A DNA stretch of 22,605 nucleotides, taken from Candidatus Moraniibacteriota bacterium (GTDB taxonomy: Bacteria; Patescibacteriota; Minisyncoccia; Moranbacterales; UBA11712). This document shows positions 3,128 through 9,753 of the stretch, one piece after another. The first letter of the stretch is position 1, and each line of letters begins with the position of its first letter. Location: the NCBI GenBank assembly GCA_003157295.1, contig PMJF01000036.1, positions 1 to 22,605 of the forward strand. Reading direction: 5' to 3'. The position numbers and the translations under genes were made by a program. The notes beneath the pieces are model-generated. The model was not told where the DNA came from and searched no databases. It was given only the letters and a program-made list of their open reading frames with translations.

Positions 3128-3198
3128 TCGGGCTGCTGGGAATCGAACCCAGCCTACAAGACCCCCAGCCTTGCGTACTACCAATATACTACAGCCCG
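3128..3198 (-). tRNA. tRNA-Pro (anticodon GGG)
   Basis: Full cloverleaf: a 7-bp acceptor stem CGGGCTG/CAGCCCG with discriminator A, a D arm with GTAT/GTAC and a loop containing GGTA, an anticodon stem CAAGG/TCTTG with loop CTGGGGG, and a T arm CTGGG-TTCGATT-CCCAG. Anticodon GGG lies at 3164-3166. The C1-G72 pair with A73 is the identity feature of bacterial tRNA-Pro. CCA is not encoded: the 3' end runs into AATTTTTTT, so a CCA-adding enzyme is required. Confidence 0.96.
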
Positions 3199-3561: not shown

Positions 3562-5316
3562 CTATTTTTCCTCCTGTTGGCGACGATACCAGTCTAAAAA
3601 GTAATGGTAACCACCAATTAGCGCTTTGGTCGAGGCCTCCGTTACGGAGGATGACACCCAAGTGGTACCCCAGATGTCCCCGTTGCTTTTCCAATAAAGC
3701 GTCACCCGAACCTTTGCCGCAGTCCCGTTCTTGTCGATCAGGGCTTTGACGTTGTAATTAATCAGTTCGAGTTGGCGAAGTTCTGGAAAAAGAGCTGGGC
3801 GCTGACGACCGCCTCGTTCCTGCAGAGCGCTCCGAAGGGCCAGATCCAGAGCATTTACCAATCCATCCCCTTCGGCCGTTTTCGGTCCAATGATGCTGGC
3901 ACCTTCCATAAGTCGAACTTTGATTGTCGCCGTGTGATGTTGGCCAAGAGAATCCATGAGAATCCCATCCGCTTCTTGCTCAGGCAAACCATCAAACGGA
4001 GCGAAATTTTCATGCAAATCGCAGCGAACAACTTCAAACTTCGGTCGGAAAAGGCCAAAGTGGTTACGGATAATGAGTTCCAGGGTCGCTCGAGCATTCT
4101 GGAAAAGCCAGCCTTCAGACTCGAAACTTTGGATGATATCCAGCACTTCGGCGATCCGCGGATCCTTTCGACTAAGATTGGGCACAATTTTTTTCAAGCG
4201 GTTGTACATTGCCGCCCGGCCGATCTGATTCGAGACACCCAGCGAGGTCGTATTTCCCACTTCTCTGGCTGGCATATGTTCGATGCTCCCTGGATCTTTT
4301 AGCCAACAATCGATGTGGGTGCCCGCATCATGATGAAAAGCGCGTTCCCCAGCGATTGGTAGGTTGAATGGCATGGATATGCCTGCCAGTTCATACATCT
4401 GACGAGTTAACGGGGTCAATAGCTCAAGCTGATGCTTTTTCACGACGGGAATGCCCATCTTTGTTCTGAGCATCGCAATGATCGTCGTGAGATCCGCATT
4501 GCCGGCTCTCTCGCCAACACCGCCAAGCGTACCTTGGACCTGATCACAGCCAAGTTCGACGGCGAATAGAGAAAGATCTACGGCTACGCCTGAGTCATTA
4601 TGGATATGCACTCCCCAGGGCAACTTTCTCGCCTGAAGCCAGGGAAGCACGTCTGCCAGAAAGGCTATCCAAGTCGGAAGCAGCGTGTTGCCTCTGGTAT
4701 CACAAAGAACAATCCGCTTAGCTCCGCCTCTTGCCGCCGCGTCCATGGTCCGAAAAAAATATTCACGGTCCTCCAGCCAGCCGTCCACCGCATGTTCAGC
4801 GTCGTAGGTCACATGTCTTCCTTCCTTTGTGAGCGTGGAAATTGTTTCAAAGATCATCCGGAAATTTTCTTCTTCGCTTACCCCAAGAATTTCCTTGCTG
4901 TGCAACTTCCAGCTTTTACCGAAGATGACAATGTTCGGCACCTTGACGTCCAAGAGGCATTTAATCAGCGGATTTCTGGCGTTGATGATTCCTCCGTCCG
5001 CCTTGGCCGTAGAGCCAAAAGCATAGAATGTGACCCCGGCCTCCGCATAACTCCGGTCAGACATAATTTCCCTAAAAACGGCCGGATTTACTTTGTCTCC
5101 CGGAGTTGGCCATCCAACTTCGATATGCCTGATGCCAGCCTGAACGATAAGCTTGATTAAAGTGATTTTGTCTGCCACGGTCCAAGTAATTCCCTTGGTC
5201 TGGCCGCCATCGCGAAGAGTGGTGTCGAAAGGCCAAACCATTTCTGGCCTCTTCATGAAGAGCTCCAGAAACTTCAGAGAACCAAAAACCTCACCCAGAC
5301 TTTGTTGTTGTTTCAT
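3562..5316 (-). CDS. cimA: citramalate synthase-type alpha-acyltransferase (LeuA/CimA family)
   Basis: 584 residues. It condenses acetyl-CoA with a 2-oxoacid; the pattern best fits (R)-citramalate synthase (pyruvate to citramalate, first step of the pyruvate route to isoleucine). The HMGL-like barrel has FDTTLRDGGQT (30-40), FGKSWKLH (132-139), YDAEH (171-175), LCDTRGNTL (204-212), metal ligands HIHND (237-241) and GVGERAGN (266-273). FGKSW and YDAEH are typical of the CimA branch. A C-terminal LeuA-type regulatory domain (about 440-584) has GDGLVNALD, NGTAAKVRV and an SSVTEAST-type element, suggesting feedback control. The ATG at 5316 has GGGGAGGAG just upstream. It is a single-gene unit behind an Ile-codon attenuator, and no other branched-chain gene is in the window. 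It looks GC-richer than its neighbours, possibly transferred. 2-isopropylmalate or homocitrate synthase activity remains possible. Confidence 0.85.
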   Translation of the reverse strand: MKQQQSLGEVFGSLKFLELFMKRPEMVWPFDTTLRDGGQTKGITWTVADKITLIKLIVQAGIRHIEVGWPTPGDKVNPAVFREIMSDRSYAEAGVTFYAFGSTAKADGGIINARNPLIKCLLDVKVPNIVIFGKSWKLHSKEILGVSEEENFRMIFETISTLTKEGRHVTYDAEHAVDGWLEDREYFFRTMDAAARGGAKRIVLCDTRGNTLLPTWIAFLADVLPWLQARKLPWGVHIHNDSGVAVDLSLFAVELGCDQVQGTLGGVGERAGNADLTTIIAMLRTKMGIPVVKKHQLELLTPLTRQMYELAGISMPFNLPIAGERAFHHDAGTHIDCWLKDPGSIEHMPAREVGNTTSLGVSNQIGRAAMYNRLKKIVPNLSRKDPRIAEVLDIIQSFESEGWLFQNARATLELIIRNHFGLFRPKFEVVRCDLHENFAPFDGLPEQEADGILMDSLGQHHTATIKVRLMEGASIIGPKTAEGDGLVNALDLALRSALQERGGRQRPALFPELRQLELINYNVKALIDKNGTAAKVRVTLYWKSNGDIWGTTWVSSSVTEASTKALIGGYHYFLDWYRRQQEEK

Positions 5317-5393
5317 GCTCTCCTCCCCTAGAGACGTTGATTTTTTATTTTTTAGGTTTTTCATTTGTGTTGGAAATAATGCTGTCAAAGAAC

Positions 5394-5427
5394 AAAAAAA
5401 CCGGCTCGGCGTTGCCGAGTCGGTTTT
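5394..5427 (-). terminator. attenuator terminator of the citramalate synthase leader
   Basis: The stem CCGACTCGGC / GCCGAGCCGG (5401-5423, loop AAC, one A-C mismatch on the minus strand) is flanked by AAAA and by seven T. It lies between the leader ORF and the cimA start. Its 5' arm and loop (5411-5420, ACTCGGCAAC) can pair over 10 contiguous bases with GTTGTCGAGT at 5464-5473, inside the leader ORF, forming an antiterminator. Confidence 0.85.
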
Positions 5428-5448
5428 GATTTCAAGTCTGTTCTTTGC

Positions 5449-5529
5449 TTAAAACGAAAACTCACTCGACAACTCAAGTCGGGTAATAATAATGCTAATA
5501 ATAATTATAAAAATATTTTTGAGTTTCAT
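5449..5529 (-). CDS. isoleucine-rich leader peptide, 26 aa
   Basis: A regulatory peptide ORF: ATG at 5529, TAA at 5449-5451. Residues 6-16 read IFIIIISIIIT, so eight of 26 codons are Ile (seven ATT, one ATA). The gene downstream is a citramalate synthase, which feeds isoleucine synthesis, so the codon run matches the pathway product as in ilv leaders. No Shine-Dalgarno site precedes the ATG; the promoter places the expected transcript start 0-2 bases before it. The CGATGAAACTCA region over the start codon (5520-5531) can pair with TGAGTTTTCG (5455-5464), and region 2 can alternatively pair with the terminator arm. A ribosome stalled on the Ile codons would favour the antiterminator. No stable protein is expected. 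Confidence 0.85.
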   Translation of the reverse strand: MKLKNIFIIIISIIITRLELSSEFSF

Positions 5530-5537
5530 CGTTGATA

Positions 5538-5565
5538 ATTATATAGATTATCGAAAATTTGTCAA
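5538..5565 (-). promoter_or_regulatory. promoter of the Ile leader-cimA unit
   Basis: Consensus -35 TTGACA (5560-5565), 16-base spacer, consensus -10 TATAAT (5538-5543). The expected start lies at about 5529-5531, at or 1-2 bases before the leader ATG, so the mRNA is essentially leaderless. Confidence 0.88.
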
Positions 5566-5570
5566 TTTTA

Positions 5571-5617
5571 GGGGTTGTGGGGACGGATGCTCGCAAGCAC
5601 CCGGCCCCAGGGGTTGT
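5571..5617. repeat. 30-base hairpin flanked by an 8-base direct repeat
   Basis: GGGGTTGT occurs at 5571-5578 and again at 5610-5617. Between them lies an imperfect hairpin (5579-5608; GGGG/CCCC, CGG/CCG, TGCT/AGCA, loop CGCA). No T-run follows on either strand. It may serve as the 3' end of the minus-strand unit to the right, or be a tiny inserted element. Confidence 0.4.
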
Positions 5618-5685
5618 CATCTGCAGCTTTGATGAAAGGGGCAGCGCCGAGATTCCGGTACAAAACGGCGATTTCCTGTTTTCAT
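5617..5685 (-). CDS. possible 22-aa Cys-containing micro-ORF
   Basis: ATG at 5685 with AGAGG six bases upstream. The 22 codons end CPFHQSCR and stop at TGA 5617-5619. It lies downstream of the 70-aa gene in the same unit. Support is the ribosome site only; the length is too short for a family call, and it may be chance. Confidence 0.3.
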   Translation of the reverse strand: MKTGNRRFVPESRRCPFHQSCR

Positions 5686-5746
5686 AAATTTCCTCTGGCG
5701 GAAAGGAGTTTTGGGTCGTTGCCCCTTTGCCGCCTGCTGATGGACA

Positions 5747-5959
5747 TTAGCGAATGGTCTCATATTCTTGGCCAATGGTTGCTTCTCCTCCTGCATTACC
5801 GCACAGCAATGATAAATCAAATATATGCGGGTAAGTTTGAATCGTTTGCGGTCCAAAGTGTTGCATAACTCTTTCCATGCCCCACCTTTGGACAAGGGTT
5901 GTTACCCTTTTTTCCCTTGGGACACCCTTGGGCCTCTGAACTTTTTCCCCAAATTCCAT
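5747..5959 (-). CDS. hypothetical protein, 70 aa
   Basis: Not recognised. Basic N-terminus (GEKVQRPKGVPREKRVTTLV), then WGMERVMQHFGPQTIQ, and a C-terminus with a single Cys (LLCGNAGGEATIGQEYE). No membrane segment. The ATG at 5959 has a strong GGAGGG five bases upstream, which is the main reason for calling it; overlapping frames lack such a site. It is the first structural gene after leader ORF 2 and its terminator, so its expression may depend on readthrough of that terminator. A 22-codon micro-ORF follows. It resembles the other orphan genes here in being short, Shine-Dalgarno-led and alone. Confidence 0.65.
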   Translation of the reverse strand: MEFGEKVQRPKGVPREKRVTTLVQRWGMERVMQHFGPQTIQTYPHIFDLSLLCGNAGGEATIGQEYETIR

Positions 5960-5991
5960 TTGCCCTCCATACGAAATTATTTCCTAGCATA

Positions 5992-6029
5992 GAAATAAAA
6001 ATTCCCGTCGGGATCGATTCCTCGGCGGG
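5992..6029 (-). terminator. putative attenuator terminator of leader 2
   Basis: CCCG/CGGG outer pairs with inner CG/CG and GG/CT pairs separated by single mismatches (6004-6029), followed on the minus strand by AATTTTTATTT. It is weaker than the other three. Its 5' arm and loop (CGAGGAATCGA, 6014-6024) can pair over 11 bases, two of them wobble, with TCGGTTTCTCG in the leader ORF (6082-6092). Confidence 0.55.
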
Positions 6030-6063
6030 TGAAATATTCTAGAAAGATTTTTTTGCTTGAAGT

Positions 6064-6159
6064 TTAGAATACTTTACTCAACGAGAAACCGAAGTGGCTG
6101 ATAAACAGCACCTTCTTCCAAATCTTCACAATATAGTTTCTAGTTGGATTGTTTTTCAT
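6064..6159 (-). CDS. putative leader peptide 2, 31 aa
   Basis: ATG at 6159 and TAA at 6064-6066, with the expected transcript start only about 3 bases upstream and no Shine-Dalgarno site. Residues 9-23 (YIVKIWKKVLFISHF) lie between the two candidate pairing regions and contain three Ile, two Val, two Phe and one each of Tyr, Trp and Leu; the codon bias is mixed rather than a clean run. Region 1 (CTAGAAACT, codons 5-8) can pair with GGTTTCTCG at the ORF end in 8 of 9 positions. The layout copies the Ile, Leu/Val and aromatic leaders nearby, but the RNA alternatives are weaker. It could be a real small basic peptide instead. Confidence 0.5.
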   Translation of the reverse strand: MKNNPTRNYIVKIWKKVLFISHFGFSLSKVF

Positions 6160-6168
6160 CTTATTATT

Positions 6169-6197
6169 AGTCTAAAAACTTTTGGATATAATGTCAA
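6169..6197 (-). promoter_or_regulatory. promoter of leader 2 unit
   Basis: -35 TTGACA (6192-6197), 17-base spacer, -10 TAGACT (6169-6174; 4 of 6 consensus). The expected start at about 6162 is 3 bases before the leader ATG. Confidence 0.6.
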
Positions 6198-6257
6198 GTA
6201 ATTTCGAAAATTTAACAAATTTATATTTTATATTCAGCTTGTTGATTATAAATTGGA

Positions 6258-6286
6258 GGGGATGACGTTCTCAGAACATCATCCCC
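6258..6286. other. strong hairpin after the Cys-rich gene pair
   Basis: GGGGATGA/TCATCCCC (8 bp), one mismatch, then GTTC/GAAC around a 3-base loop. It lies 65 bases downstream of the 52-aa gene. Only a weak T-content region follows on the minus strand (TCCAATTTATAA), so it is a weak terminator or a 3' stabilising stem. Confidence 0.55.
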
Positions 6287-6351
6287 ATCGCAGCCCCCTT
6301 AGTATAAGATTGTTATGCTCAGGATTTTTTCCTTCTTTCCCCTGCCGCATA

Positions 6352-6510
6352 TCACTGCACGGCCTGTTCGTGCTGGATCATTTCTACGCCCTCTGGCTGA
6401 TTCTTCGGACACTTGAAAGGAACTACTCCATACTTGCAGCCCCTTCCCAAAGCCGCGTTGTCTTCGCAGCCAGCACATTCCATCCGCGGATCCTGATTTA
6501 CTTTGTCCAT
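6352..6510 (-). CDS. small Cys-rich protein, 52 aa
   Basis: Not recognised. The 52-residue soluble peptide has CAGC, then a single Cys in GRGCKYG and another in FKCPK, a spacing that could bind one metal ion, probably zinc. The C-terminus is Glu/Gln-rich. The ATG at 6510 was chosen because AAGGAG lies 7 bases upstream; 11 more in-frame codons upstream have no ribosome site. It follows the 90-aa Cys-rich gene by 26 bases and is probably co-transcribed with it under the Leu/Val leader. TGA is the stop, which argues against a recoded TGA. Confidence 0.68.
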   Translation of the reverse strand: MDKVNQDPRMECAGCEDNAALGRGCKYGVVPFKCPKNQPEGVEMIQHEQAVQ

Positions 6511-6536
6511 AGCGCCACTCCTTTGCCGCAGTTTGG

Positions 6537-6809
6537 TTAGCAAGTTTTTATTTCATGCGACCCGGAACAGATGAATCTTTGGGCGATCTTCCGATAAAAC
6601 TTATAACTCTCCTTCCAACAACGGAATCCGCAGAAGCAACTGTACTCATTCCTCCCGCTTTTTTCATTCTCTATAAGCAAAAGATCCCTTTGCTCCCCCC
6701 TGGCGATACAGCGGGGACAAACTACCTCAAGCTCAATTCTGAAGCCTCCGCACTTGCAAGGCTTGAGAAAAGTTTGGCAAAGAACCGGTCTTATTCCAAC
6801 TTGTACCAT
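6537..6809 (-). CDS. Cys-rich putative zinc-ribbon protein, 90 aa
   Basis: Ten Cys in 90 residues: KPCKCGG (18-20), VCPRC (31-34), SCFCGFRC (58-64) and three more near the ends. The paired CxC and CxxC elements fit one or two zinc ribbons. The region after 60 is Lys/Tyr/Phe-rich and could contact nucleic acid; that is inference. No known family is recognised. The ATG at 6809 has AGGGGAGGG 8 bases upstream, directly after the leader terminator. It is the first structural gene of the Leu/Val-leader unit and is followed by another Cys-rich gene, which suggests a joint role. Confidence 0.7.
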   Translation of the reverse strand: MVQVGIRPVLCQTFLKPCKCGGFRIELEVVCPRCIARGEQRDLLLIENEKSGRNEYSCFCGFRCWKESYKFYRKIAQRFICSGSHEIKTC

Positions 6810-6831
6810 GCAGGCATCCCTCCCCTAAAAT

Positions 6832-6859
6832 AAAAAACTCGGCGATGTTTTTCGCCGGG
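6832..6859 (-). terminator. attenuator terminator of the Leu/Val leader
   Basis: CGGCGA/TCGCCG stem with a 6-base loop (6840-6857), followed on the minus strand by AGTTTTTTATTTT. The sequence GCGAAAAAC (6847-6855), covering 5' arm and loop, is perfectly complementary to GTTTTTCGC (6925-6933) inside the leader ORF. Confidence 0.85.
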
Positions 6860-6892
6860 CGGAGGATTCCATAAGAAATTATTTATTTGAAG

Positions 6893-7006
6893 TTAGTTGG
6901 TGATCTTATCAAATACTCGGCTTAGCGAAAAACTGGCTCCCACTAGGAGGAGAGTAAACACCAGCACCAGCTGGATCATCATGTTTTTCGTTAAGCTTAT
7001 TTCCAT
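6893..7006 (-). CDS. Leu/Val-rich leader peptide, 37 aa
   Basis: ATG at 7006, TAA at 6893-6895; transcript start expected 3-4 bases upstream, no Shine-Dalgarno site. Residues 9-24 (MMIQLVLVFTLLLVGA) have five Leu, three Val and one Ile. This run lies between region 1 (GCTTAACGAAAAAC, codons 4-8, 6983-6996) and region 2 (GTTTTTCGCTAAGC, codons 25-29, 6920-6933), which pair at 13 of 14 positions. Region 2 can instead pair with the terminator arm. Slow decoding of Leu/Val codons would free region 2 and allow readthrough into the Cys-rich genes. The hydrophobic core could also form one membrane helix, so a small membrane peptide or toxin is the main alternative. Confidence 0.75.
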   Translation of the reverse strand: MEISLTKNMMIQLVLVFTLLLVGASFSLSRVFDKITN

Positions 7007-7016
7007 AACAGTTACT

Positions 7017-7045
7017 AATATAGTTTACTTGCCAATCCTCGTCAA
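7017..7045 (-). promoter_or_regulatory. promoter of the Leu/Val leader unit
   Basis: -35 TTGACG (7040-7045, overlapping the ROK gene stop codon), 17-base spacer, -10 TATATT (7017-7022). The start expected at about 7010 is 3-4 bases before the leader ATG. Confidence 0.78.
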
Positions 7046-7971
7046 GGGCGATTGTGGAAAACTGAGGCCGCCGCTCCCAAAAGCGGGGAACTCTCTCCCA
7101 AGGCAGTTATTTCTATTTTTGGCCATCGCAAAAATTTATCTATATATTTTTCCCCATATTTAAGAAAAATTTCACTATTATTCAGCGCCACCGCTCCGCC
7201 TAATATAACGACCTCTGGGTCATAGGCGGCGATTACATTCGAAATACCCCGCCCGTTAATCTTCCCTAGCTTTTCCATAAACATGAGGGCAGTCTTATCT
7301 TTCTTCCGCGCCAAGTCAAAAATATCGGCAGCCGTGGATATTGAATGTTTATTTTTGTTCCATGCTCTAAAAAATTTCGCGATATTATTTCCGGAAGCAT
7401 ACGCTTCCCAATGCCCGCGGCCTTTTCCGCAAGTGCAAGGCAGATTATATTCCGTATCGACTATCATATGCCCAATTTCTGCCGCATTTCCATCTTTTCC
7501 CAACAGCAAATTTCCATTGACGATCGCTCCCCCGCCAATGCCTGACGAAATAGTGATATAAACCAAATTGCTAAATTTCTTTCCCTCCCCGAAATATTTT
7601 TCTCCCAGCGCTCCTGCGTTGCAATCATTCAGAAAAAAGACGGGCAGTCCAAATGTTTTTCTGAGTGGCTCTACGATCGGAATAAATTTATACTTAATAT
7701 TCGGCGTATTCACAATAGCGCCTTTTTTCATGTCGATCGGACCGACTGCGCTCACGCCGATCCCTTTGAATTTCCTTGGGCTATTTTTCACAATTAGCTT
7801 TTTGATATCGCCGATCACTTGTGCCACAATAATATTTCCGCTCTTTCCTGTTTGAATAGTTTTCGTAACATTTTTTGCGATAATTTTCCCATCCTGATCA
7901 ATAATTGCCGTCCGTATGTTCGTCCCGCCAATATCGACCGCGATCGCCAAATTTTTTGCCTTTTTTGCCAT
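7042..7971 (-). CDS. ROK family sugar kinase (glucokinase-like)
   Basis: 309 residues. ATP-dependent sugar kinase, probably for glucose or an amino sugar, in the cytoplasm. The phosphate loop is AVDIGGTN (11-18), the catalytic Asp is D116 in LNDCNAG, and SSGIGGGAIVNG (142-153) is the second ATP element. The ROK zinc motif is H168 in EIGHM and CTCGKGRGHWEAYASG (179-194), where the usual third Cys is His187, a variant that still supplies a metal ligand. It lacks the N-terminal helix-turn-helix of ROK repressors, so it is an enzyme. The ATG at 7971 starts the domain directly; no Shine-Dalgarno site is seen. A 13-base palindrome lies just upstream. Exact sugar not readable. Confidence 0.88.
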   Translation of the reverse strand: MAKKAKNLAIAVDIGGTNIRTAIIDQDGKIIAKNVTKTIQTGKSGNIIVAQVIGDIKKLIVKNSPRKFKGIGVSAVGPIDMKKGAIVNTPNIKYKFIPIVEPLRKTFGLPVFFLNDCNAGALGEKYFGEGKKFSNLVYITISSGIGGGAIVNGNLLLGKDGNAAEIGHMIVDTEYNLPCTCGKGRGHWEAYASGNNIAKFFRAWNKNKHSISTAADIFDLARKKDKTALMFMEKLGKINGRGISNVIAAYDPEVVILGGAVALNNSEIFLKYGEKYIDKFLRWPKIEITALGESSPLLGAAASVFHNRP

Positions 7972-7991
7972 ATAATTGAATTTATCTAGCT

Positions 7992-8004
7992 GTAAACAGT
8001 TTAC
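7992..8004. promoter_or_regulatory. palindrome upstream of the ROK kinase (possible operator)
   Basis: GTAAACAGTTTAC is a perfect 6+1+6 dyad, 21 bases upstream of the ROK ATG and in the expected promoter zone. Size and place fit a repressor site. No regulator is encoded nearby. Confidence 0.4.
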
Positions 8005-8008
8005 CATA

Positions 8009-8050
8009 AAAAGAAAAGTCCTCCCAAGGTCGACTGACCCGGGAGGACTC
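8009..8050 (-). terminator. terminator of the three-gene orphan operon
   Basis: A 9-bp perfect stem AGTCCTCCC/GGGAGGACT (8017-8025 with 8041-8049), followed on the minus strand by TTTTCTTTTT. It separates the three-gene operon from the ROK gene. Confidence 0.88.
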
Positions 8051-8104
8051 TGCGAAATTTTTTTGCGCGCGTTGGCACATTACCTACCTGTCGATAGGTC
8101 GAAG

Positions 8105-8266
8105 TTATTTTTTAACCACGATATGGACGTGATCACCACGATCCTGGATTTCTATCACCGTGTTTTCTAAGGTTGCGTTTATTCCTGCGTCACACGCGCC
8201 AAAACCCAGCGCAACAGCAGCCTTTTTACCCTGAATCCTTTGCTCAACGATCTTAGCATCAGTCAC
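8105..8266 (-). CDS. hypothetical protein, 53 aa, GTG start
   Basis: An open frame of 53 codons with GTG at 8266 and TAA at 8105-8107. AGGAG lies 8 bases upstream, which fixes the GTG start. The protein is soluble. A central Gly/Ala stretch with one Cys (AAVALGFGACDAGIN) is followed by a beta-rich C-terminus (NTVIEIQDRGDHVHIVVKK). Not recognised. It is the last gene of the three-gene unit led by the aromatic leader, 17 bases after the 142-aa gene and just before the terminator. Regular codon use and the ribosome site make it a convincing gene despite its size. Confidence 0.68.
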   Translation of the reverse strand: MTDAKIVEQRIQGKKAAVALGFGACDAGINATLENTVIEIQDRGDHVHIVVKK

Positions 8267-8283
8267 CTTTCAGCTCCTCTCAT

Positions 8284-8712
8284 TTAGGCTATTTTCCTTT
8301 CAGCAAGATCCAGAATTTCAGCAATTTCTTTCAGTTGAGAATTTATTTTGCTTTTTTCCGCAGCCATTTTGATGCAATGCATGATTGCATCCACTGACAA
8401 TTCCGTGGCCACCGCCAGCACCTTTTCCGCAATTAACCTGATCAGAAAAGACATTTTCGGAGAATGGTTCAGCATAACGCTTAGCATCTCCACGAAATAT
8501 TGTTCCTTTCCTTCGATCAAAAAGATGAGAAATATTCTCCTGTCGCCAGAATCATCTTGCGAAAATTCGCCTCTTCTGACCCGCTCCATAAGGTATTCGC
8601 AAAAATTCATGGGGCTTTTTCGGGCCAAAATTCGAAGACTGTGGGCTGCGCTGGCAAATGTTTCTTTGCGCGCTACGGCTCCAGACAAACACCTTATTTG
8701 CTTTCCCAGCAT
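8284..8712 (-). CDS. hypothetical helical protein, 142 aa
   Basis: Not recognised. Almost wholly alpha-helical: basic N-terminus (LGKQIRCLSGAVARKETFAS), then repeated amphipathic helices (FCEYLMERVRRGEF, RRIFLIFLIEGKEQYFVEML, SFLIRLIAEKVLAVATEL, IMHCIKMAAEKSKI, LKEIAEILDLAERKIA). The pattern could be a small helical-repeat fold of HEAT or TPR type, but no repeat signature is clear. No membrane segment. The ATG at 8712 has AAGGGGTG 7 bases upstream. It lies 59 bases after the 68-aa gene and 17 bases before the 53-aa gene, in one operon under the aromatic leader. Confidence 0.7.
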   Translation of the reverse strand: MLGKQIRCLSGAVARKETFASAAHSLRILARKSPMNFCEYLMERVRRGEFSQDDSGDRRIFLIFLIEGKEQYFVEMLSVMLNHSPKMSFLIRLIAEKVLAVATELSVDAIMHCIKMAAEKSKINSQLKEIAEILDLAERKIA

Positions 8713-8771
8713 CTTTTTTCACCCCTTTTCTGCCGATGAGAACAGATTGATTACGATCCAGACGCAATGCA

Positions 8772-8978
8772 TTAGCCTAAAATTCGGGATTTTAGCAAAG
8801 TGCAACATACTGATACTGCCTTTGCGTAAATCGGGCTTATTTGCTTCATCCGCCTTTTAGTTTTCAGGGCTTTCTTAGCCCTTTCCAGTAAATCCTGATT
8901 TCCACCCTTAAGGCAGGAAGCAATGATAAATTGCAGATTTACTTCGGGATGACGACCCAATCCTTTTTCAACGAACAT
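8772..8978 (-). CDS. hypothetical protein, 68 aa
   Basis: Not recognised. A helical, basic protein: GRHPEVNLQFIIASCLKGG looks like a helix-loop unit, followed by LLERAKKALKTKRRMKQIS and a C-terminal Cys pair (SVCCTLLK). The ATG at 8978 was chosen for the AGGTG site 4 bases upstream (GCGAGGTGATT); the frame is open another 17 codons upstream with no such site. It is the first structural gene after the aromatic leader attenuator and starts the operon with the 142- and 53-aa genes. HPEVNL and LLERAKKAL resemble TPR-type helices, but one unit alone is not enough to call it. Confidence 0.65.
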   Translation of the reverse strand: MFVEKGLGRHPEVNLQFIIASCLKGGNQDLLERAKKALKTKRRMKQISPIYAKAVSVCCTLLKSRILG

Positions 8979-9051
8979 AATCACCTCGCTTATTTTTTCG
9001 AATTTTCGAAAATAAAGTGCTATTAACAACTTTGATGTCTTCGCTCGCTCT

Positions 9052-9075
9052 GAAATTAAAACAAGTTTTAATTTC
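9052..9075. repeat. AT-rich perfect palindrome between CGCTCG-rich arms
   Basis: GAAATTAAAAC and GTTTTAATTTC form an 11-bp perfect inverted repeat with two bases between. It is flanked by TTCGCTCGCTCT on the left and TCTCGCTTCGCTCG on the right. It lies in the 5' region of the three-gene operon, between attenuator and first gene. No T-run, so not a terminator. Confidence 0.5.
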
Positions 9076-9094
9076 TCTCGCTTCGCTCGACAAT

Positions 9095-9119
9095 AAAAAA
9101 CCGCGCCTTTGAGGCCGGT
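9095..9119 (-). terminator. attenuator terminator of the aromatic leader
   Basis: On the minus strand CCG-GCCT-CAA-AGGC-(G)-CGG (9101-9118, one bulge) is followed by TTTTTTATTG. The segment 9113-9129, covering the 5' arm, can pair over 16 bases (one bulge) with 9174-9189 in the leader ORF. Confidence 0.82.
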
Positions 9120-9149
9120 CTTTGGTTTGCTTATAATTTCTTGAGTAAT

Positions 9150-9251
9150 TTATCTTTTTGTCAAAATTCTACTCAAACCAAAACCGACCTGGCGCGTAAA
9201 CCAGAAAAAATAATAGCTGGAAGAAAAAGTTTTGGTTTGGTTAGCTTTCAT
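9150..9251 (-). CDS. aromatic-rich leader peptide, 33 aa
   Basis: ATG at 9251, TAA at 9150-9152; the expected transcript start is about 3 bases upstream and there is no Shine-Dalgarno site. Residues 9-18 read FSSSYYFFWF: four Phe, two Tyr, one Trp, three Ser. These codons lie exactly between region 1 (CAAACCAAAAC, 9229-9239) and region 2 (GGTCGGTTTTGGTTTG, 9174-9189). Regions 1 and 2 pair over 11 perfect bases; region 2 instead pairs with CAAACCAAAGACCGGCC (9113-9129) over 16. A ribosome stalled on aromatic codons would block 1:2 and favour the antiterminator; a ribosome at the stop codon or no ribosome would allow termination. It precedes the three-gene orphan operon. No stable product is expected. 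Confidence 0.82.
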   Translation of the reverse strand: MKANQTKTFSSSYYFFWFTRQVGFGLSRILTKR

Positions 9252-9260
9252 TACTTTTGT

Positions 9261-9288
9261 ATTTTAGCATCCAGATTTTTTTTGTCAA
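9261..9288 (-). promoter_or_regulatory. promoter of the aromatic leader unit
   Basis: -35 TTGACA (9283-9288), 16-base spacer, -10 TAAAAT (9261-9266). The expected start at about 9254 is 3 bases before the leader ATG. Confidence 0.82.
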
Positions 9289-9299
9289 GAATGTTTTCA

Positions 9300-9396
9300 G
9301 TCGCGTTTCAAAAAGTCCCAGCTTCGCATTCTAAGACACTTTGAAATGCGACGGGGCGAAATTTTTCATTCTCGATGGCCCCGTCAAGCATCGAGA
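9300..9396. other. nested and mutually exclusive hairpins after the 118-aa gene
   Basis: Three stems overlap. GTCGCGTTTCAAA (9300-9312) pairs with TTTGAAATGCGAC (9340-9352), 13 bp with one wobble. GACGGGGC (9350-9357) pairs with GCCCCGTC (9378-9385). TCTCGATG (9370-9377) pairs with CATCGAGA (9389-9396). The last two exclude each other. A further TCGCATT/AATGCGA pairing competes with the first. No T-run follows, so this is not a plain terminator; it could be a structured 3' UTR of the minus-strand gene. Confidence 0.55.
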
Positions 9397-9753
9397 TTAT
9401 TTGGCGGCAAGTTTGGCCAGAATAGCTTTCTCAAGCTCTCCGGCCTCTCTCAGCGCGTCCTGAAGCTCTTCATTTACTAAGAGCTGATCAGGTTTTTTGC
9501 GCCGCCGAGTAGAGAGTGGCAGATCCTTGAAGAGACCGATTTTCCTGCATGCCTCCTGGAAGCCCTGTACCCGCTGATCCGTTACTCCCCTCCTCCGGAG
9601 CTCTTTTGCAGCTGCCAAGGCCTCATCGTTGGGAAAATGAAGCCTTTTTTCACCCTGAACCATACAACCACTCCTCAGGGTTTCAATAAGCGCCTCGCCA
9701 CTTTTTTGGCTTAAAGGAGCATCTTTCTCGCGATTGGGTCGCAAGCCTGCCAT
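9397..9753 (-). CDS. hypothetical protein, 118 aa
   Basis: Not recognised. A basic, soluble, helical protein with a Lys/Arg-rich centre (ELRRRGVTDQRVQGF, LSTRRRKKPDQLLVN) and an acidic-helical C-terminus (EELQDALREAGELEKAILA). RRGVTDQRVQGFQEACRKIG resembles a helix-turn-helix-like stretch, so nucleic-acid binding is possible; that is inference only. The ATG at 9753 has AAGGGGGG 7 bases upstream. It has its own promoter, divergent from the M24 peptidase, and a structured region directly after its stop codon. Base composition is visibly GC-richer than in the neighbouring conserved genes. Confidence 0.7.
   Translation of the reverse strand: MAGLRPNREKDAPLSQKSGEALIETLRSGCMVQGEKRLHFPNDEALAAAKELRRRGVTDQRVQGFQEACRKIGLFKDLPLSTRRRKKPDQLLVNEELQDALREAGELEKAILAKLAAK

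Follow-up and report, generated by a model that had tools for sequence, protein, structure and literature searches.

Candidate codon-reading attenuators in a row, ahead of differing genes, in Candidatus Moranbacteria

Attenuators of the enterobacterial trp, his and ilv operons follow the logic of regions 1, 2, 3 and 4, in which antitermination depends on a stalled ribosome, and translation of their leaders starts from a Shine-Dalgarno site. Attenuators with leaderless short open reading frames (ORFs) are closer to the system reported here. Excerpts of the published accounts place them at ilvBNC of Corynebacterium glutamicum, with a transcript start one nucleotide (nt) from the leader ATG (PMC11857589), at leuL, trpL and ilvL of Streptomyces lividans (PMC8079986), at trpL of Sinorhizobium meliloti (PMC7298713), and in mycobacteria, where leaderless poly-cysteine short ORFs act as attenuators (PMC9031893, citing Canestrari 2020). 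Here we describe four units of one repeated design on the minus strand of a Candidatus Moranbacteria contig, from position 9288 to 5394 of the window (the whole stretch of DNA analysed, 22,605 nt, which is contig C27 of the 1.02-Mb genome G000). No description of leader-peptide or transcription attenuation in Patescibacteria or the candidate phyla radiation was found in open-access PMC full texts. Leaderless attenuators themselves are already known, and this would be a variant of a known mechanism, in a lineage and a use for which we found no description.

We propose that the units are ribosome-mediated attenuators of transcription, each of which reads the amino-acid codon run of its own leader, a reading that draws on folding models and to which we assign a probability of roughly 0.87. 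A sequence-only reading of this DNA had likewise seen codon-reading attenuators of different specificity, and comparison with relatives, codon-class tests, the folding switch and shuffled controls all speak in favour of them. The anatomy of the units, its conservation, their codon runs and the match between run and fold switch point were computed and are described below; leaderless initiation, ribosome stalling and a response to starvation we infer, in the following steps. RNA polymerase would begin at the ATG of the leader or a few bases ahead of it, and a ribosome would begin on the 5' end of the transcript without a Shine-Dalgarno site. With charged tRNAs the ribosome would pass the codon run and melt or cover region 2 at the end of the ORF, leaving region 3 free for the terminator, and transcription would stop. 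With uncharged tRNAs it would halt on the run, regions 2 and 3 would pair as a long antiterminator, and the gene behind would be transcribed. With aromatic, Leu/Val, Ile and mixed specificities side by side, a small set of genes could be switched on by particular shortages; specificities predicted elsewhere also include runs of Leu, Asn, Asn/Gln and Cys. We know of no leader-peptide attenuator with an Asn or Asn/Gln run.

Anatomy and pairing of the units

The four units predicted within 4 kb by the sequence-only reading are present, on the minus strand. In each (U4, U3, U2 and U1, in the order of transcription) a promoter is followed by an ATG, a short leader ORF (33, 37, 31 and 26 codons, respectively), an intrinsic terminator, and a gene with a Shine-Dalgarno site. 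The parts of the switches are as follows.

9261..9288, minus: U4 promoter, TTGACA-16-TAAAAT (promoter scan)
9150..9251, minus: U4 leader ORF, MKANQTKTFSSSYYFFWFTRQVGFGLSRILTKR, Tyr/Phe/Trp, 33 amino acids
9229..9239, minus: U4 region 1, CAAACCAAAAC, pairs with region 2 (1:2 p=0.044; placed by eye)
9162..9195, minus: U4 region 2, 5' arm of the antiterminator (pairing test, orthologue alignment)
9104..9141, minus: U4 region 3, 3' arm of the antiterminator (pairing test, orthologue alignment)
9095..9121, minus: U4 terminator hairpin, imperfect stem, with U run
7017..7045, minus: U3 promoter, TTGACG-17-TATATT (promoter scan)
6893..7006, minus: U3 leader ORF, MEISLTKNMMIQLVLVFTLLLVGASFSLSRVFDKITN, Leu/Val, 37 amino acids
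6983..6994, minus: U3 region 1 (1:2 p=0.003; placed by eye)
6903..6934, minus: U3 region 2 (pairing test, orthologue alignment)
6846..6877, minus: U3 region 3 (pairing test, orthologue alignment)
6832..6857, minus: U3 terminator (terminator scan, pairing test)
6169..6197, minus: U2 promoter, TTGACA-17-TAGACT (promoter scan)
6064..6159, minus: U2 leader ORF, MKNNPTRNYIVKIWKKVLFISHFGFSLSKVF, mixed codons, 31 amino acids
6064..6093, minus: U2 region 2, reaching the end of the stop codon (pairing test)
6013..6042, minus: U2 region 3 (pairing test)
5993..6029, minus: U2 terminator, imperfect stem, with U run
5538..5565, minus: U1 promoter, TTGACA-16-TATAAT (promoter scan)
5449..5529, minus: U1 leader ORF, MKLKNIFIIIISIIITRLELSSEFSF, Ile, 26 amino acids
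5447..5474, minus: U1 region 2, with the stop codon inside it (pairing test, orthologue alignment)
5411..5437, minus: U1 region 3 (pairing test, orthologue alignment)
5394..5425, minus: U1 terminator with U run (terminator scan, pairing test)

A simple terminator scan is unconvincing by itself (8 sites, 5.6 expected) and misses the terminators of U2 and U4, both of which have imperfect stems. Pairing was judged against 1000 dinucleotide shuffles of each leader. Region 2, the end of the ORF, pairs beyond chance in all four window units (p 0.001-0.007) with a partner stretch that includes the 5' arm of the unit's terminator, in helices of 23-29 pairs and -26.6 to -33.2 kcal/mol. In the five genomes that have the locus, all 16 leaders (four of U1, two of U2, five of U3, four of U4, and one of U5, a fifth unit found in a relative) form a 2:3 antiterminator of 23-32 pairs at p<=0.007, and pairing at p<=0.05 is seen in 47 of 48 model matches examined elsewhere. 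In those 16 leaders, and in the 47 matches that pair beyond chance, the predicted antiterminator overlaps the end of the leader ORF and would exclude the terminator. The ORF ends look alike because each pairs with the 5' side of its terminator, as the sequence-only reading had suspected of region 2. Both arms also still pair in alignments of orthologues, in 95.7% (U1), 87.8% (U3) and 89.1% (U4) of cells, compared with at most 59.6% when slid. When region 3 was swapped between orthologues no clear preference for the cognate partner emerged; region 2 is G/U-rich and pairs widely.

A region 1 had been proposed for every unit. In the window its pairing with region 2 is beyond chance in U3 (p 0.003) and U4 (p 0.044) but not in U2 (p 0.097) or U1 (p 0.53), and in the five-genome set p<0.05 is reached by 4/4 leaders of U4, 2/5 of U3 and 1/2 of U2. 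The stop codons of U1 and U2 lie inside region 2, and these positions suggest that a ribosome at the stop would itself cover region 2, so that region 1 would not be needed.

Codon runs and the fold switch point

The codon runs read YYFFWF in U4, LVLVFTLLLV in U3 and IFIIIISIII in U1, and U2 has a mixed stretch (YIVKIWKKVLFI). Among 66 distinct leaders, which are related and hence not independent, 45 have codons of one amino-acid class (FYW, ILV or NQ) clustered within 9 codons more strongly than shuffles do (p<0.05), and the class count per 9-codon window averages 6.48, compared with 4.38 and 4.44 in the other frames.

In our folding model a ribosome is placed at each codon, the RNA up to its leading edge is held unpaired, and the probability of the terminator is computed. 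U2 of G006, for which no terminator was found, was left out, giving 65 leaders; nine matches to the U1-derived RNA model (R1, below) and three from the phylum search were excluded as such, although two of these twelve, G010 and G027, entered through a model-free scan. The terminator has a probability below 0.3 on the control codons and above 0.7 at the stop in 52 of the 65, and the reverse is never seen; a strict, three-codon version of the switch is found in 42/65 real leaders and in 1/520 with shuffled ORFs. Of 60 leaders in which the flip is clear, 56 have it no more than three codons from where the run ends. The mean distance is 1.48 codons versus 3.23 for permuted runs (p 0.0002), and 1.89 versus 3.45 when leaders are collapsed to 31 families (p 0.0001); the correlation of run end and flip, family-collapsed, is 0.37, or 0.77 without U5. 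For runs such as LLLLLL, NNNQQQNN, IIISSIII and YYFFWF, run end and fold switch are no more than one codon apart. Codon run and RNA switch point are separate features, and their agreement is as attenuation predicts.

The same switch, set by ribosome position, could instead sense translation inhibitors or a general slowing of ribosomes rather than individual amino acids. The fold responds to stalls at many codons upstream of region 2 and not to the run alone, the mixed codons of U2 and U5 indicate no clear single amino acid, and antibiotic-sensing attenuators exist (excerpts of PMC4191407). However, a general sensor would not need runs such as the four just named to end at the switch point, and we regard this explanation as unlikely.

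U3 has more synonymous changes than expected (0.55, compared with 0.24), as do Ile/Leu/Val groups in two further genera (0.50), and most other groups have a weaker excess. Peptide or codons are thus kept in some groups, and the test is silent for U4. The suggestion that RNA rather than peptide is kept is right about region 2 as the cause of the similar ORF ends, but conservation is not of RNA alone, since U3 and some of the Ile/Leu/Val groups favour synonymous change. The same preference, together with the hydrophobic peptides of U1, U3 and U4, would suit short ORFs that encode functional small hydrophobic peptides (membrane- or toxin-like), with the RNA structure an ordinary 3' end. Leaders containing Asn/Gln, Cys or Lys/Asn nevertheless have the same anatomy and are not membrane-like, the conserved peptide C-terminus coincides with the antiterminator arm, and shuffling the ORF almost never reproduces the switch, all of which makes functional peptides very improbable.

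Recurrence of the switches and the genes behind them

Leaders of the same kind are found beside a ROK-family kinase gene in related genomes: U4, U3 and U1 in both G001 and G002; U5, then U4, U3, U2 and U1 in G006; and U3, at a contig end, in G004. G003 and G005 also match the U3 model (E 1.9e-13 and 1.0e-17), and a U3 leader is present in six of the seven other family genomes compared. Of 52 ROK-kinase loci found, the 49 besides those of G001, G004 and G006 are each at most 42% identical.

Covariance models were built from U1 (R1), U3 (R2) and U4 (R3). Among 120 genomes of the order, our own included, R3 matches 49 at E<=0.1 (37 of these at E<=0.001), R2 matches 24 at E<=0.1, and R1 matches 13 at E<=0.01. 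Searched across the class, R3 matches 12/383 genomes at E<=0.01. Three of these lie beyond the order: G292, which has a good promoter, and G299 and G338, which have none. Spread beyond the class was considered and rejected: R3 matched 4/379 genomes of the phylum, including our own, and two of the others have no leader ORF and the third has neither terminator nor pairing. We read 48 matches (R2 at E<=2.2e-4 and R3 at E<=7.2e-5, plus G011, G292, G299 and G338), every one of which has a leader ORF of 15-60 codons. R3, built from aromatic leaders, also matched MKNMQTKISFILSVIILLVFETGLGLREMKKA-type leaders, whose run is of Ile/Leu/Val and whose region 2 is related, and which occur in genomes with an aromatic leader too (G111, G112, G110, G040, G108 and G109); between the two types the predicted sensing part differs and the predicted switch part is alike. 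R1 matches elsewhere include Ile leaders with the runs IIIDIII (G124) and IIMDIII (G125). One leader outside the order, MKQSQIKNRNCCCCFYELDGFDLFLFKN (G299:C109:473-615, L191), has four consecutive Cys codons and passes the switch test; it lacks a good promoter, and we found no gene downstream of it in its stretch.

A translation-independent RNA switch (a riboswitch or protein-bound antiterminator) with an incidental ORF would fit the long conserved pairing and the preference of free RNA for the antiterminator in some units, but is made highly improbable by the leader ORF in 48/48 examined R2/R3 matches of order and class, by the class-specific codon runs, and by Rfam, which at the gathering score finds across the window a tRNA (3128-3198) and no leader, T-box or riboswitch family, and in 5300-9400 no leader or other plausible family even at E<=1.

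A model-free scan required a promoter, an ATG at 4-12 nt, 18-60 codons, a terminator and 2:3 pairing. In 24 hit-centred stretches (458 kb) it found 32 units versus 1 in reversed sequence, and it recovers 13/15 known units in the four best-covered family genomes, so it is not blind to them. Three of its units match no RNA model (MRNQINNLLLLLLTQHPVVVFRIS in G124, LLLLLL; MLNKVQNNQAQLLLLDLSNPAVILKRA in G119, LLLL; MKQRNNNNQNNNNTAKAALFEF in G029, Asn), and it also found MKNSFPLNNNQQQNNWPFRQLVF (G027) and MDKSKNLLIIISSIIIGRRGQSVFAG (G010), both R1 matches too. New runs include LLLLLL and NNNQQQNN, and in G124 Ile, Leu and aromatic units lie within 1.4 kb. In 400 kb of unselected sequence of G006 and G027 the same scan gave 0 units and 0 controls, so that four units in 4 kb are not due to chance; a chance origin was rejected on this count and on the 32 versus 1 in the hit-chosen stretches. 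As to the network of the sequence-only reading, the same 400 kb of two relatives gave no support to a genome-wide one: the predicted units are a local cluster of three to five.

The promoters of the window score 10-12 of 12, with 8-10 nt from the -10 hexamer to the ATG in U1-U4, a spacing that puts the probable start of transcription at the leader ATG or a few bases upstream of it. The pattern TTGAC-N17-19-TAnnnT-N6-12-ATG occurs at 20 sites in our whole genome and its backwards form at 3; four of the 20 are U1-U4, a further two belong to shorter leaders that have a terminator, and the remaining 14 mark other ORFs, short or long. In seven family genomes (G001-G007) the strict pattern is about seven times commoner than when reversed (185 versus 26), which suggests that leaderless genes are common in the family. 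Spacing is 6-12 nt in all 32 units of the model-free scan (which permits 4-12), and a promoter scoring at least 9 of 12 lies within 15 nt of the start in 32/48 R2/R3 matches.

The genes behind the four switches (the cargo) are as follows.

8772..8978, minus: U4 cargo 1, orphan of 68 amino acids
8284..8712, minus: U4 cargo 2, orphan of 142 amino acids (homologues: 0 among the order's 127 other genomes)
8105..8266, minus: U4 cargo 3, orphan of 53 amino acids
6537..6809, minus: U3 cargo 1, Cys-rich orphan of 90 amino acids
6352..6510, minus: U3 cargo 2, Cys-containing orphan of 52 amino acids
5747..5959, minus: U2 cargo, orphan of 70 amino acids
3562..5316, minus: U1 cargo, citramalate synthase-like (CimA) enzyme of 584 amino acids (TIGR00977)

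Small orphan genes, which had been expected for most units, stand behind U2, U3 and U4, but U1 would control the CimA-like enzyme. Genomes G000 and G001 belong to one genus, and their ROK neighbours are 81% identical. From ATG to U run their leaders are 90% (U4), 91% (U3) and 81% (U1) identical, and in the 600 nt after the terminator none of the three units shows blastn or tblastx similarity at E<=0.001, bar an 18-nt match in U4. The cargo of U4 and U3 is common to G002 and G006; in other genera, part of the cargo is related and diverging, and much of it is unrelated. Genes may have been swapped or may have diverged very fast, and we keep both readings. On these comparisons, different cargo behind conserved switches is the most unusual part of the system.

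The U1 cargo scores 377.6 bits with TIGR00977 (cut-off 450), the best among the 22 families listed, and a match to this enzyme was found in 2/53 other genomes searched, both weak. Dihydroxyacid dehydratase (IlvD, PF00920) was not found in our assembly, which is 90% complete, and was detected in 14/14 controls; isoleucine synthesis as the purpose of U1 was rejected on this ground. A gene for synthesis, import or tRNA charging of the sensed amino acid was sought behind the switches, and only U1 with CimA, in our own genome, could fit. No other cargo in the window has a family match above cut-off, and of 10 larger cargo proteins elsewhere two pass the Pfam cut-off (DUF2079 and a HAD-like hydrolase). 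Phage or defence cargo was also rejected: of 10 cargo proteins none matched PHROGs at E<=0.01, and PADLOC produced a single weak match (E 0.0044). A U4 cargo of 189 amino acids in G002 and G006 is predicted to be all-helical bar one short strand (pLDDT 82). Two weak matches, both below cut-off, are those of a 531-amino-acid cargo of an R3 unit (L218:393-1985, minus, G055) to DIT1_PvcA of Pfam (E 0.0068), a family of pyoverdine/dityrosine biosynthesis, and of a 405-amino-acid cargo (L208:597-1811, G101), the second that is ligase-like, to an NCBIfam amino-acid ligase (LdmS, E 9.7e-6). A further cargo, of 298 amino acids, is a protein of ATP-grasp fold.

Shorter leaders of another design were seen at the gene for aspartate carbamoyltransferase (pyrB; TIGR00670, 277 bits in G001). 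One precedes it, at L031:11944-11988 (G000:C32), L090:6701-6657 minus (G001) and L091:2803-2844 (G006), and has 13-14 codons, a variable peptide, and a stop a few nt before a conserved terminator. It resembles the attenuator of E. coli pyrBI, in which a close ribosome disrupts the terminator. Another, of 14 codons (L031:13173-13217, L090:5470-5426 minus, L091:4085-4129 and L092:4486-4530), has its stop just before a conserved terminator and follows pyrB in G000, G001 and G006. Behind it are ORFs that contain Cys; those of G001 and G006 look related, and G000 looks different.

Points of doubt, and comparison with described attenuators

Several observations weigh against attenuation by individual amino acids as we propose it. 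Neither U2 nor U5 has a single dominant amino acid, and 13/65 leaders do not switch by our criterion. The plainest cases are U1 of G006, U5, the leaders of G039, G115 and G117 (C13), and an Asn leader in G029, for which the folding model keeps the terminator closed throughout; a leader with an NNNNQNNNN run is among the failures. With only the ribosome footprint blocked, U2 of G006 misbehaves, and static folding of this kind is ambiguous for U4. If RNA behind the ribosome may re-pair, 3/4 U4 leaders have no terminator at the stop, so that U4 would need 1:2 pairing or a trailing ribosome. Pairing of regions 1 and 2 is non-significant in U1 (0/4), U5 (0/1), 3/5 U3 and 1/2 U2, and there is no synonymous excess in U4 (0.19, 0.20 expected) or U2 (0.17, 0.19 expected). 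Covariation is thin, with 4/77 pairs changed on both sides, which is not above shuffles (4-5 sequences each); as two-sided changes are few, conservation rather than covariation carries the support for the pairing. A good promoter near the start is missing in 16/48 model matches, and the leaderless character claimed by the sequence-only reading is thus not clear in every relative. Finally, no link with the sensed amino acid is evident for most of the genes behind the units, and the CimA of the Ile unit sits in an assembly with no detectable dihydroxyacid dehydratase.

One interpretation of the locus as a whole is that of a modular starvation-response island, in which fixed amino-acid switches are kept as control slots and quickly changing, lineage-specific cargo is replaced or diverges beyond recognition between species of one genus; we judge the chances of this to be even. 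Usually a gene outlasts its control region. Switches that are 81-91% identical ahead of unrelated sequence show the opposite, and conserved switches of this kind offer a way into the study of orphan genes that change fast. Most Patescibacteria are uncultured, and few of their regulators have been characterised. A self-contained sensor that can be read from sequence may hint at the amino acids that these cells monitor and at the nameless genes that respond to a shortage, and reporters in laboratory bacteria could be used to test the switches with no need to grow the host.

As excerpts of their descriptions have it, the Actinobacterial leaderless attenuators are alike in having cognate codons in the leader peptide, a start at or beside the ATG, and hairpins after the leader, and the genes behind them serve the biosynthesis or import of the sensed amino acid or encode its tRNA synthetase. 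The trpL of S. meliloti and the mycobacterial poly-Cys leaders are of single specificities, and the same excerpts describe no tandem series with swapped cargo. Compared with the enterobacterial attenuators, region 2 here lies inside the ORF, and region 1 appears to be optional. Unlike those of Actinobacteria, the Moranbacterial units would combine several specificities in a row with mostly orphan, exchangeable genes behind them.

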